64,000 nt of DNA from Ensifer sp. LC11 (GTDB lineage: Bacteria; Pseudomonadota; Alphaproteobacteria; Rhizobiales; Rhizobiaceae), in NCBI RefSeq assembly GCF_001695835.1, contig NZ_MBSO01000018.1, positions 1-64,000 on the forward strand. Reading direction: 5' to 3'. Each line of letters begins with the position of its first letter. Within the stretch, counting starts at the first letter, position 1. Of this stretch, positions 7,708-10,672 are shown in pieces. Under the pieces are notes generated by a model, which saw only the letters and a program-made list of their open reading frames with translations, made no database searches and was not told the DNA's origin. The translations under genes and the position numbers were made by a program.

Positions 7708-8802
7708 TCAGGCCTCGATCTGCACATCTCCGAGCGGCCGCGAGCAGCAGGCAAGGATGTAGCCTTCGTCGATCTCGTCATCGAGAATGCCGCCATTGTG
7801 GTTCATCTCCACCTCGCCGGCGACCTTCATCACCCGGCAGGTGCCGCAGATACCGCCTTCGCAGGCGGCGCCGATGCGCACACCGTTGGCGCGTGCCGCC
7901 TGCAGGATCGTCTGGCCAGGCTTGGCCTCAATCTCCTTGCCGCTCATGGTGAAGGCGATCTTGGCCGCCTGGACCTCGCCGTCGTCGCTCGCGCCGGCGC
8001 GCACGGCGATCTCTTCGGCCGCCGGAGCCGCCGCCGGCTGAAAGCTCTCCTCGTGATAGCGGCTCATGTCGAAACCAGCCGTCTTCAGCATTTCGCGCAC
8101 GCCGCGCATGAACGGTTCCGGACCGCAGCAAAACACGGTGCGCTCCATGAAATCCGGCGCAAGCAGCGGCAGCTTCGCGCCGTCGATGCGACCGCGCAGG
8201 CCATGCCAGCCGTGGCGCGCTTCATGTCCCTCGACGATGAAGCCGAGGTTCAGCCCGGACATCTGGGTGGCCAGCACCTCGAGTTCGGAGCGGAACAGCA
8301 GATCCTCCGGCCGGCGGGCACAGGAGATGAAGGTGACATCGGTTTCCGGCACACAGTCGGCCATCCAGCGCGTCATCGACATCATCGGGGTGATGCCAGA
8401 GCCGGCGGAGATGAACAGATACTTGTCGCCCGGATGTCGGACGAAGCTGAAATCGCCGAGCGGGCCGAAGGCGCGGAGCGTCATTCCGGGCTTCAGATGA
8501 TCGAACATCCAGCGGGTACCGATGCTGTCGGCCTGCGCCTTCACCGTCACGGCGATCGACAGCGGCCGCGAAGGCGTCGACGACAGCGTGTAGGTGCGCA
8601 TGACCGGCTCGTCGGCGACCGGCAGTTCGAGGGTGACGAACTGGCCGGGCAGGTAGCGGAACCAGGCCGGCTTTTCGGCGCGGAAGGTGAAGGTCATGAC
8701 ATCGGCGGTCTCGACGACAGCCGATGTGCATTCCAGCATCTGCTGCCGGTCGATCCAGACATGCAGCGCGTCGAAATGGTGGAAGGAGGATGCCATCTGC
8801 AT
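7708..8802 (-). CDS. gbcB: Ferredoxin-NAD(P)H reductase component of betaine-type demethylase
   Basis: A 364-residue flavin reductase with a C-terminal plant-type [2Fe-2S] ferredoxin domain. The FAD-binding region holds RTYTLSSTPS, the NAD-binding region FISAGSGITPMMSM and VFCCGPEPFM, and the ferredoxin domain the cluster cysteines in GAACEGGICGTC plus a later Cys in ILACCSRP. It would move electrons from NAD(P)H to the Rieske oxygenase encoded just upstream. The start was set at MQMASSFHH, whose ATG lies one base after the oxygenase stop codon with AAGGG before it, so the two are translationally linked. The long frame upstream overlaps the oxygenase and was rejected. It should share the B12-riboswitch control of the upstream gene. 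Confidence 0.88.
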   Translation of the reverse strand: MQMASSFHHFDALHVWIDRQQMLECTSAVVETADVMTFTFRAEKPAWFRYLPGQFVTLELPVADEPVMRTYTLSSTPSRPLSIAVTVKAQADSIGTRWMFDHLKPGMTLRAFGPLGDFSFVRHPGDKYLFISAGSGITPMMSMTRWMADCVPETDVTFISCARRPEDLLFRSELEVLATQMSGLNLGFIVEGHEARHGWHGLRGRIDGAKLPLLAPDFMERTVFCCGPEPFMRGVREMLKTAGFDMSRYHEESFQPAAAPAAEEIAVRAGASDDGEVQAAKIAFTMSGKEIEAKPGQTILQAARANGVRIGAACEGGICGTCRVMKVAGEVEMNHNGGILDDEIDEGYILACCSRPLGDVQIEA

Positions 8803-8803
8803 G

Positions 8804-10048
8804 TCAGGCGACCCTTGAAAGCGGAGCCGCATCGCCCTCAAGGCGCTGCTCCATGAACTTGCAGTACCATTCGACGAACTGCATCACGCCACCCTCGTGC
8901 TCGGGCGAATAGGGGCCAGGCTCATAGGCCGGTGAGCGGATGCCGAAGGCGTTTTCCTCGACGATCTGGCGATCCTGGTCATTGGTCTCGGTCCAGACAT
9001 GCGTCAGGTCTTCGAGGTTGTAGTCGACACCCTCGACCGCATCCTTGTGGACCAGCCACTTTGTCGTCACCTGCGTTAGTTCAGGCCCAAGCGGCAACAC
9101 CCGGAAGGTGATGGCGTGGTCGGCAAGCACATGGTTCCAGGTCGTCGGATAGTGGAACATCAGGAGCGTGCCGATCTGCTTTTGATGCACATCGGCCGAC
9201 AGCGCCTGCCTGACGGCGCGCGCGCCCGACATGGTGTAGCTTTCGGCATTGTCGATCAGCGGCATCCGGGCGGCGCGGAACTGGCCAGTCGGCGACATCC
9301 GGAACTCGCTCGGCAGCCCGTCCGCCTCGCATTTTGCCCAGTGGGCGGCGATGACCGGATCGTCCTTGGCGCCCTGAACGCCGGTCGCGGTCGGCGCCTC
9401 GGGATAGGTCCGGCAGAGTTCAGGATGGTTGGCGGCACAATGGTAGCACTCGCGGTTATTTTCCCAGACGAGCTTCCAGTTGCCCTTTTCGACGATCGTG
9501 CTTTCGAAGGCGACCTTGGTTTCGCCGAGGCGATGCGGCGCAAGATAGGGCAATGCCAACTCACGAAACGCCGCGAAATCCGCCGGCTTTTCCGACAGGT
9601 TGATGAAGATGTAGCCGCCGACCGTTTCGCAATGAATCGGCTTCAGGCTGTGGGCCGCCTTGTCGAAATCCTCGCCCATTTGGCGCGCAAAGAGCAGTGA
9701 GCCGTCAAGCTCATAGGTCCACTGGTGGTAGGGACAGACAAGCTTTGCCGACGAACCCTTTGCTTGCGTGCAGACACGCGAGCCGCGGTGACGGCAGGAG
9801 TTGTGCAATGCGCGGACCGTGCCCTGACGATCACGGGTTATCACGACGGGAAAGTCGCCGACCTGAACGGTGAAATAGTTGCCGGCCCGCGGGATCTCGC
9901 AGTCATGGCCAATGAACAGCCAATCCCTGTACCAGATGTTTTCCAGATCCTGCCGGTAGTAATCGGGATCGATGTAGAAGGCCCGATCGAGGCTGTAGCC
10001 GTCTCGCTTGCCCTTGAGCTTGCGAAGCATATCGTTCCTGGTGTCCAT
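8804..10048 (-). CDS. gbcA: Rieske [2Fe-2S] oxygenase, glycine betaine demethylase type
   Basis: A 414-residue aromatic-ring-hydroxylase-fold oxygenase. The Rieske motif is C85-x-H87...C105-x2-H108 (NSCRHRGS ... LVCPYHQW). The mononuclear iron site shows ENNRECYHCAANHPEL, with the two His four residues apart after the Asn. The C-terminal block HKDAVEGVDY...TNDQDR closely resembles GbcA of Pseudomonas as I recall it, which demethylates glycine betaine to dimethylglycine. Related substrates (stachydrine, carnitine) are possible. The ATG is preceded by GAGGACAGGAC, which is itself part of a helix able to hide the ribosome site. Upstream in the same leader is a cobalamin riboswitch, unusual for this family. 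Its partner reductase follows directly. Confidence 0.9.
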   Translation of the reverse strand: MDTRNDMLRKLKGKRDGYSLDRAFYIDPDYYRQDLENIWYRDWLFIGHDCEIPRAGNYFTVQVGDFPVVITRDRQGTVRALHNSCRHRGSRVCTQAKGSSAKLVCPYHQWTYELDGSLLFARQMGEDFDKAAHSLKPIHCETVGGYIFINLSEKPADFAAFRELALPYLAPHRLGETKVAFESTIVEKGNWKLVWENNRECYHCAANHPELCRTYPEAPTATGVQGAKDDPVIAAHWAKCEADGLPSEFRMSPTGQFRAARMPLIDNAESYTMSGARAVRQALSADVHQKQIGTLLMFHYPTTWNHVLADHAITFRVLPLGPELTQVTTKWLVHKDAVEGVDYNLEDLTHVWTETNDQDRQIVEENAFGIRSPAYEPGPYSPEHEGGVMQFVEWYCKFMEQRLEGDAAPLSRVA

Positions 10049-10049
10049 G

Positions 10050-10090
10050 TCCTGTCCTCATGCGCCATGTTTCGGAGAGGCAGGACAGGA
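10050..10090 (-). promoter_or_regulatory. Helix that can mask the gbcA ribosome binding site
   Basis: The 9-base arm TCCTGTCCT (10082-10090 read on the minus strand) is perfectly complementary to AGGACAGGA (10050-10058), which holds the Shine-Dalgarno and ends one base before the gbcA ATG. The loop is 23 bases. It lies directly downstream of the cobalamin aptamer, so it is a good candidate for the part that turns ligand binding into a block of translation. Confidence 0.7.
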
Positions 10091-10165
10091 ACCCACACAG
10101 GCGCACGCCCATGCGTTTGAGGCTCCGATCCGGCTGCCCGCCGCAACCCGTTACGGTTATGTCCG

Positions 10166-10340
10166 TCAAGGCTGGTTTCCGGGCTCAGGAGCCGTCCTTT
10201 GCGGACCAGCCCGGCGCCTTCCCGGACGAAACCGTCCAGTGGCCTTCTGCCGAGGCTTTCGCTCCACCACCGTTGCGGGGGCAGCGCCGGGATTTGACCG
10301 GCTTCCCAATTCTCCGCCCTCCCTAAAGGCGGCACCTTGA
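10166..10340 (-). promoter_or_regulatory. Cobalamin (B12) riboswitch aptamer
   Basis: Read on the minus strand, the leader shows the hallmark blocks of the cobalamin aptamer in order: closing helix 5' arm TCAAGG; GGTGCC; AATTGGGAAGCCGGT; AAATCCCGGCGCTGCCCCCG followed by CAACGGT; GCCACTGG; and the B12 box GAGCCCGGAAACCAGCC, then the pairing arm CCTTGA. Such RNAs bind adenosyl- or related cobalamins and lower expression of the gene below. The next gene on this strand is gbcA, 118 bases from the aptamer end, with an SD-masking helix between. No cobalamin synthesis or uptake gene is nearby, so the target appears to be the oxygenase operon. Confidence 0.93.
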
Positions 10341-10672
10341 GTAGCGATATGTAAGCGCGGAAGGCCTTCCGGGAGCTGCCGAATAGCGACATCCAATTCC
10401 AGAATGGCGACACGGAAAAAACTCTTTTCCAGAGCCGAACTCGCAGATATTTTCTTTTGTAAACAGACAGATAGATTAAAGCTTGAGCATTTGCCGCGTT
10501 TTAGGCCAGGCATGCCGCGGGCACGGAAGAGTTTCGCCCGTTTGCGACATACCGTCCAACAGCGGGATGAATTGGCCGAGCGCCGAAAGGAAATCTTTCA
10601 TTAACCATAAACCATTAGCCTTGCGCGGCGGACGACAGGTCCGGCAGGCAGGCAGATGGCGCGCTGACGATC
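10341..10672. other. Divergent intergenic stretch holding the gbcAB promoter
   Basis: About 330 bases separate the riboswitch aptamer from the next rightward gene. The gbcAB promoter must lie here; I cannot point to a convincing -35/-10 pair. A 66-codon plus-strand frame at 10404-10604 has no ribosome site and is not called. Confidence 0.4.

Follow-up and report, generated by a model that had tools for sequence, protein, structure and literature searches.

The window, meaning the whole 64-kb stretch of DNA that was analysed, was searched with cmscan over its entire length, and the cobalamin riboswitch RF00174 was the sole match at the gathering threshold. The aptamer lies at 10153-10354 on the minus strand and was matched over the complete model (positions 1-189) with a covariance score of 117.2 bits against a gathering threshold of 31.5 bits (E 9.6e-29), which rules out chance similarity as its source. 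The initial annotation had seen all main blocks of a B12 aptamer at 10166-10340. This interval falls within the Rfam match, the blocks GGTGCC, GGGAAGCCGGT, CGCTGCCCCCG, GCCACTGG and GAGCCCGGAAACCAGCC as well as the closing TCAAGG/CCTTGA helix were found in the sequence, and the Rfam search that it had proposed gave a score far from low or absent. The 3' end of the aptamer is 104 nt away from the start codon of a Rieske oxygenase gene (8804-10048, minus strand), which is the next gene on this strand with no cobalamin gene between, as had been noted. The presence of a complete cobalamin riboswitch before a gbcAB-like operon is confirmed.

The oxygenase has 414 amino acid residues with the domains PF00355 and PF00848 and resembles GbcA (NF058607, 512 bits). 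A GbcB-like ferredoxin reductase (NF058606, 398 bits; PF00970, PF00175 and PF00111) is encoded at 7708-8841 on the minus strand and was scanned as the stretch 7711-8811; its frame opens at TTG 8841, and the likely start is the ATG at 8802. Like GbcAB of Pseudomonas and Chromohalobacter, to which the most similar curated models belong, the pair consists of a Rieske oxygenase and a reductase. Unlike them, both proteins stay below the equivalog cut-offs, with 512 against 670 bits for the oxygenase and 398 against 500 bits for the reductase, and the oxygenase is 45-48% identical to the eight over-cut-off GbcA members compared. The name gbcA given in the initial annotation therefore stands as the most similar curated model but not as a member above the curated cut-off.

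In a quick tree that took in 8 of the 17 GbcA members over the cut-off, the clade of the window oxygenase was set apart from the gammaproteobacterial-type GbcA and from Sinorhizobium Stc2 (SH-aLRT 96). The identity to Stc2, a stachydrine demethylase, is 55%, and with this value and its place outside the Stc2 clade of the quick tree the oxygenase was rejected as an Stc2. The nearest named orthologues among the best 80 of 592 stretches are from Sinorhizobium and Ensifer, with 90% identity. Inside the window clade lies also an orthologue from Paracoccus ferrooxidans pFER3 with 70% identity. It is adjoined by a GbdR-like regulator (187 bits, cut-off 480) and a reductase, and its cluster also encodes a glutathione-independent formaldehyde dehydrogenase, a BCCT transporter, ETF subunits, FolD and an FAD oxidoreductase; in its leader, no riboswitch was found with nhmmer. 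Since this cluster of the same clade is of the glycine betaine type, glycine betaine is most likely the substrate of the window oxygenase. Together with the operator-like repeat described below, the P. ferrooxidans cluster suggests that the enzyme converts glycine betaine to dimethylglycine.

Directly 3' of the aptamer, a hairpin with the sequence GGTTGC-GGCGG-GCAGCC was found at 10132-10148 (minus strand). Its GGNGG loop can pair with the CCCC of L5 (CCCCC) with one bulged base. In known cobalamin riboswitch structures the P13/L13 loop kisses L5 (PMC9600662), and the hairpin in the window fits P13/L13, so that the same L13-L5 contact may be predicted here. A strict GGNGG-loop hairpin is present in 79 of 87 riboswitch-bearing leaders (78 found by script and the window's own found separately), and a looser rule likewise recovered it in 79 of them, whereas shuffled sequences averaged 4.1 of 87. 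The stem showed compensatory changes at three pairs and was 95% paired, compared with 23-43% when slid (37 distinct segments). The eight leaders without the strict hairpin come mostly from MttB-bearing genomes.

Between aptamer and gene, a second hairpin at 10050-10090 (minus strand) could sequester the Shine-Dalgarno sequence by nine perfect pairs of TCCTGTCCT (10090-10082) with AGGACAGGA (10058-10050). Only 1 of 60 shuffles of the window leader was equally good. Across the leaders general support was weak: p<=0.05 was reached in 9 of 79 only, the mean z of -0.56 was not significant against -0.22 in riboswitch-less controls, and a duplex test was unconvincing, with -14.4 kcal/mol for the leaders' own pairs and -13.9 kcal/mol for swapped ones. 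With this general proof having failed, masking of the Shine-Dalgarno sequence is possible. An intrinsic terminator as expression platform was rejected, as none was found in the window leader. With this hairpin available to cover the Shine-Dalgarno sequence of the window leader and with no terminator in sight, translational control is the likelier mode.

Upstream of the aptamer by 31 nt, the direct repeat TGTCGC-N15-TGTCGC is located at 10386-10412 (minus strand). It is the only match of this pattern in the window (0.04 expected by chance) and probably is an operator for an AraC-family activator of the GbdR/CdhR type. The CdhR site of P. aeruginosa is GGTCGC-N15-GGTCGC and is described as very similar to that of GbdR (PMC5806209). 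In the putative operator of the window, the half-sites likewise are direct repeats that share a TCGC-like core and stand 15 bp apart, an architecture that is conserved among gbcA promoters. The repeat TGTCGY-N14..16-TGTCGY was found in 61 of the 87 riboswitch-bearing gbcA promoters, where 250 nt upstream of the aptamer were searched, and in 38 of 39 riboswitch-less ones, where 450 nt were searched; given these unequal lengths, a strict comparison of the two rates is not possible. Mononucleotide shuffles gave 0 of 2520. Its end is 31 nt away from the aptamer in most leaders with a riboswitch (range 10-44). L040, the only riboswitch-less locus that lacks the repeat, is flanked by a GbdR-like gene. 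The pattern occurred 15 times in the own genome compared with 7 times for the reversed control, and it was not found in the mtgBC and mtgD loci L021 and L098. Because the repeat stands in both promoter sets and resembles the CdhR site, an activator that responds to quaternary amines, presumably of the GbdR/CdhR type, probably controls the promoter with or without the riboswitch, which would be a removable layer.

The RF00174 element at gbcA is one of seven in the own genome. Judged by the neighbouring genes, the other six precede metE, nrdEF, an ABC transporter, a nitroreductase-family gene, cbtA and cobU/cobW. The binding protein of the transporter is similar to BtuF, with 48.5 bits that fall short of the cut-off for BtuF, the nitroreductase-family gene was read as bluB, and the match at cobU/cobW is weak (32.5 bits). 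The metE and nrdEF genes are close together at L015:6208-13661, each with one cobalamin riboswitch. Within this regulon gbcAB is the odd one, unless a B12-dependent counterpart exists for it too.

Such a counterpart, a B12-dependent betaine methyltransferase route, had been proposed in the initial annotation, and the genome bears it out. Four MttB-family (MTTB) genes are present. One of them, mtgB, adjoins the genes of the corrinoid protein MtgC and a DUF1638 protein, and the same contig encodes MtgD, a methyltetrahydrofolate:corrinoid methyltransferase. MtgB, MtgC, MtgD, a MetF-like protein, a RamA/AcsV-like activase and DUF1638 are thereby assembled in a region of about 13 kb. MtgC contains PF02310 and PF02607, and its best NCBIfam match is 'glycine betaine-specific corrinoid protein MtgC' with 210 bits, which is below the equivalog cut-off of 370 bits (NF047996). 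In all eight further loci examined, including those of genome G102 and Ciceribacter lividus, MtgC and DUF1638 were also encoded near the MttB gene. The genome therefore encodes a B12-dependent enzyme for the same step, and GbcAB and the Mtg route would share one substrate.

In Ruegeria pomeroyi, MtgB, MtgC, MtgD, MetF2, RamA and DUF1638 were identified for glycine betaine demethylation, and mutants of mtgC and mtgD lost growth on betaine (PMC12478193). Likely counterparts of this whole set lie in the one region of the window genome. The same article reports a second betaine pathway in Sinorhizobium meliloti (Barra et al. 2006), for which it proposes MtgBCD, and it mentions bacteria with GbcAB but without MtgBCDE; the window genome has both routes and a riboswitch that links them. 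In the available part of PMC12478193, the only mention of 'riboswitch' is a glycine riboswitch in a reference.

Some further MttB-family genes and a structure were observed. The product of the own mtgB (L021:7318-8889) matches PDB 4yyc, a 'putative trimethylamine methyltransferase', over its full length with 1130 bits, and this solved structure may be the betaine methyltransferase discussed here. Just beyond the window, about 57 kb from gbcA, lies an MttB paralogue (G000:C18:66843-68336; L023:6826-8394), which is 54% identical to the mtgB beside mtgC and is adjoined by a LysR gene. An MttB gene is found on the contig of gbcA, about 48-66 kb away from it, in eight relatives (G003, G054, G057, G071, G075, G100, G103 and G138). 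On another contig of the own genome (G000:C12, L019:4854-13400), a divergent MttB-family gene adjoins a second Rieske oxygenase together with two FAD oxidoreductase/GcvT-type genes that are dimethylglycine-dehydrogenase-like, a possible second pair of a corrinoid enzyme and an oxygenase.

One alternative is that the riboswitch is real and B12-responsive but that the enzyme pair acts on another quaternary amine, such as proline betaine, with a different MttB-family enzyme. This would agree with the four paralogues, with the activity of MttB-family enzymes on several betaines (PMC12478193), with the 55% identity to the stachydrine demethylase and with the GbcA cut-off that was not reached. We regard it as unlikely, since the window clade is apart from Stc2, the 70% identical P. 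ferrooxidans orthologue stands in a glycine-betaine-type cluster, and an MttB gene is found beside MtgC in the own genome and in the eight further loci.

The occurrence of the riboswitch and of MttB was then compared among the gbcA orthologues. In a family sample of 151 genomes, 68 had a match at E<=1e-90 and 53 an orthologue of at least 64.7% identity; the loci of all 53 were scanned with Rfam, and MttB was scored at E<=1e-40. RF00174 was upstream of gbcA in 37 of the 53 and absent in 16. Both riboswitch and MttB were present in 36 genomes and neither in 15, with one genome having the riboswitch only (G094) and one MttB only (G102; Fisher 4e-11). Three homologues of 54-57% identity on the Stc2 side of the quick tree (G090, G002 and G098) were left out of this count; they were scanned and are without riboswitch, although G090 and G098 have MttB. 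Also left out were fourteen homologues of 41-47% identity (L081-L094), with no riboswitch in the four that were scanned, and seven further matches.

A second set consisted of named genomes, represented by the best 80 of 592 confirmed stretches in a scan of GTDB genomes. Their leaders were searched with an nhmmer profile that separated 37 positive and 16 negative controls without error, the positives being the sequences from which it was built. MttB was searched in all 80 genomes, the completeness of which is not stated. Among these best 80 of 592, the aptamer was found in 54, all of them with MttB; 25 had neither, Ciceribacter lividus had MttB only, and none had the riboswitch only (Fisher 7e-20). 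The riboswitch-bearing ones among the 80 include Sinorhizobium, Ensifer, Shinella, Mesorhizobium, Aminobacter, Labrys, Pannonibacter, some Rhizobium and others. Those without both include Rhizobium leguminosarum and relatives, Agrobacterium, Brucella/Ochrobactrum, Martelella and others. Rhizobial-type gbcA genes were also found in a record titled Bacillus subtilis SK6B4 (L173) and in a MAG titled Arenimonas (L114); these assemblies are probably mislabelled or mixed.

Seven loci are common to both sets. When merged, the 126 distinct gbcA orthologues comprised 86 with both traits, 37 with neither, two with MttB only and one with the riboswitch only. The riboswitch is kept with the B12-dependent enzyme and absent without it, with 3 discordant cases among 126. 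This co-distribution is the strongest evidence of the analysis. The comparison of leaders had been suggested in the initial annotation, and its logic, that the oxygen-dependent demethylase is made when B12 is scarce, gains support from a riboswitch whose presence tracks MttB almost perfectly.

We then asked how often the two traits have changed. On a careful gene tree of the 53 orthologues each trait changed 9 times. Independent pairs on its well-supported branches gave 5-6 concordant, 0 opposed and 0-2 without difference, with a median p of 0.031 in the sign test (range 0.031-0.0625). On a quick tree of the 126, the traits changed 11 and 9 times. Fewer pairs were supported there, with means of 4.4 and 4.7 concordant and 0 opposed, and the sign test alone stayed above 0.05 (median p 0.125 and 0.0625). 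The Pagel test for correlated change, applied on midpoint-rooted gbcA gene trees and not on species trees, gave a likelihood ratio of 33.0 for the 53 (p 1.2e-6) and of 37.8 for the 126 (p 1.3e-7), where three label shuffles gave 0.8-2.8. The two trees disagree in the rate estimates that bear on the order in which MttB and the riboswitch were lost. That the absence at gbcA merely reflects a wholesale loss of B12 riboswitches was ruled out for the family sample, since at least one other RF00174 element was retained in 16 of 16 genomes without the gbcA riboswitch, as seen with stricter filters that lose weak matches.

These data bear on the alternative that the riboswitch and the mtg genes are baggage of certain lineages, inherited and lost together with no functional link. 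The losses are indeed clustered in the Rhizobium leguminosarum/Agrobacterium, Brucella/Ochrobactrum and Martelella groups, and the pair sign test is only borderline. Against this, each trait changed about nine times on the tree of the 53 orthologues, and the Pagel tests strongly favour dependence. Moreover, the operator-like repeat stays in 38 of the 39 promoters that are without the riboswitch, and the other B12 riboswitches are kept in all 16 genomes. We consider joint inheritance without function very improbable.

The discordant genomes were inspected individually. The aptamer of G094, the only riboswitch-bearing genome without MttB, is visibly decayed: 19 of 87 conserved columns are changed, with the B12 box and L5 among the affected parts, and a search of its leader for a P13 hairpin found none. 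Changes are also seen in MttB-bearing genomes, since the aptamer of G061 (L044, 2850-3046) is partly degraded with 11 of 87 conserved columns changed, and 8 of 87 are changed in G084 (L060). In G102 and in Ciceribacter lividus (L119), mtgB, mtgC and the DUF1638 gene are close together and no riboswitch precedes gbcA. These two exceptions are counted against the reading that B12 selects between the two routes, as are the changed aptamers of G061 and G084 and the eight leaders without a strict P13 hairpin.

In four genomes of the family sample the gbcAB operon stands beside other genes of the B12 regulon (G131, G035, G062 and G033; loci L232, L233, L234 and L235). gbcAB adjoins metE or core metE in all four and nrdAB in G131, G035 and G062, with a separate RF00174 element for every one of these operons. 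The metE of G033 and the nrdB of G062 were identified by tblastn. In G062, nrdB is separated from the gbcA riboswitch by a BtuF-like gene, and core metE is preceded by an unnamed gene. These genomes were chosen for the other riboswitches that had been seen near gbcA and thus do not sample the family at random. Within flanks of only 1.5-2.5 kb, a neighbour of the metE or nrd type was found at 6 of the 87 loci with the riboswitch and at none of the 39 without it. The proposed control of gbcAB by B12 as a B12-independent enzyme is further supported by these islands, because three B12-independent enzymes stand together, each with its own B12 sensor. Another very improbable alternative, that the riboswitch serves B12 economy or the supply of methionine and C1 units, with MetH stopping when B12 is lacking, C1 units from GbcAB feeding MetE or other needs and MtgBCD being incidental, would suit the neighbouring metE and gbcAB with their riboswitches in some genomes and the link between betaine and methionine metabolism (PMC12478193), but it does not predict the absence of the riboswitch without MttB in genomes that keep gbcA and, in the family sample, also keep other B12 riboswitches.

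A fluoride riboswitch (RF01734, 36.9 bits) was seen near one nrdAB-gbcAB-metE island (L233:15084-15142). Divergent back-to-back pairs of cobalamin riboswitches about 60 nt apart were observed at G070:C32:27562-28023, G101:C2:83970-84427, G040:C11:120062-120523, G105:C1:1307016-1307477 and elsewhere.

The aptamer and its conservation, the P13 hairpin, the partner route, the co-distribution and the operator-like repeat, all directly observed, are as a whole best explained by a repression of the O2-dependent demethylase GbcAB by B12 when the corrinoid route can work, which we consider highly probable. When cobalamin is plentiful, the leader RNA would bind it and the gbcAB operon would be off, and betaine would be demethylated by MtgB-MtgC-MtgD with the methyl group passed to tetrahydrofolate. 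When cobalamin is scarce, the unbound RNA would allow the O2- and NADH-dependent GbcAB to be made, which would release the methyl group as formaldehyde. The OFF direction is predicted from sequence and context. The operator of the GbdR/CdhR type would add a probable substrate control, so that the operon may respond to 'betaine present AND B12 low'. gbcAB would thus be a B12-independent stand-in, as metE is for MetH and class I nrd is for NrdJ, except that its step is catabolic and its partner not homologous to it.

The riboswitch of metE has the same aptamer class, and its logic is the one proposed for gbcAB: the enzyme that needs no B12 is repressed as long as its B12-dependent equivalent can work (PMC9600662, PMC2211319). 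In contrast to metE, gbcAB encodes a Rieske oxygenase of catabolism, and its counterpart, a corrinoid methyltransferase made of three parts, is not homologous to it. The class I nrd riboswitch likewise represses a B12-independent enzyme when the B12-dependent one can work, and RF00174 precedes nrdEF in the own genome and nrdAB beside gbcAB in relatives. Whereas class I nrd is biosynthetic and essential, gbcAB is optional and catabolic and probably also induced by its substrate. Another parallel concerns a desaturase, a type of enzyme that uses oxygen. In a metagenome survey, a cobalamin riboswitch was described on a fatty-acid desaturase gene, which like gbcAB encodes an enzyme outside B12 metabolism under RF00174, and an unknown B12-dependent counterpart was suggested (PMC2211319). 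The available part of that survey leaves this counterpart unnamed, whereas the one of gbcAB is present and co-distributed.

The initial annotation knew of no control of this kind for gbcAB, and in the openly licensed literature, to which the search was confined, we found no description of a B12 riboswitch controlling it. To our knowledge, gbcAB would be the first catabolic oxygenase under a cobalamin riboswitch. The RNA class and the regulatory logic are known, and the kind of target is new. A catabolic oxygenase thus joins the likely targets of cobalamin riboswitches, and the presence of a riboswitch may be used for finding non-homologous enzyme pairs that do one job.

For the Rhizobiaceae and their relatives, it seems probable that methionine synthase, ribonucleotide reductase and betaine demethylase form a three-step B12-independence regulon, sometimes in one island with three separate riboswitches, which decides the fate of the methyl group and in which the gbcAB riboswitch is retained almost exclusively alongside the corrinoid route. 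Rhizobia use glycine betaine, an osmolyte that is abundant in plants and microbes, as a nutrient. These bacteria carry two routes for it, and B12 is the probable signal that chooses between them. If this is true, the availability of B12 decides whether the methyl group of betaine is kept as methyl-tetrahydrofolate or leaves as formaldehyde, for which O2 and NADH are spent.
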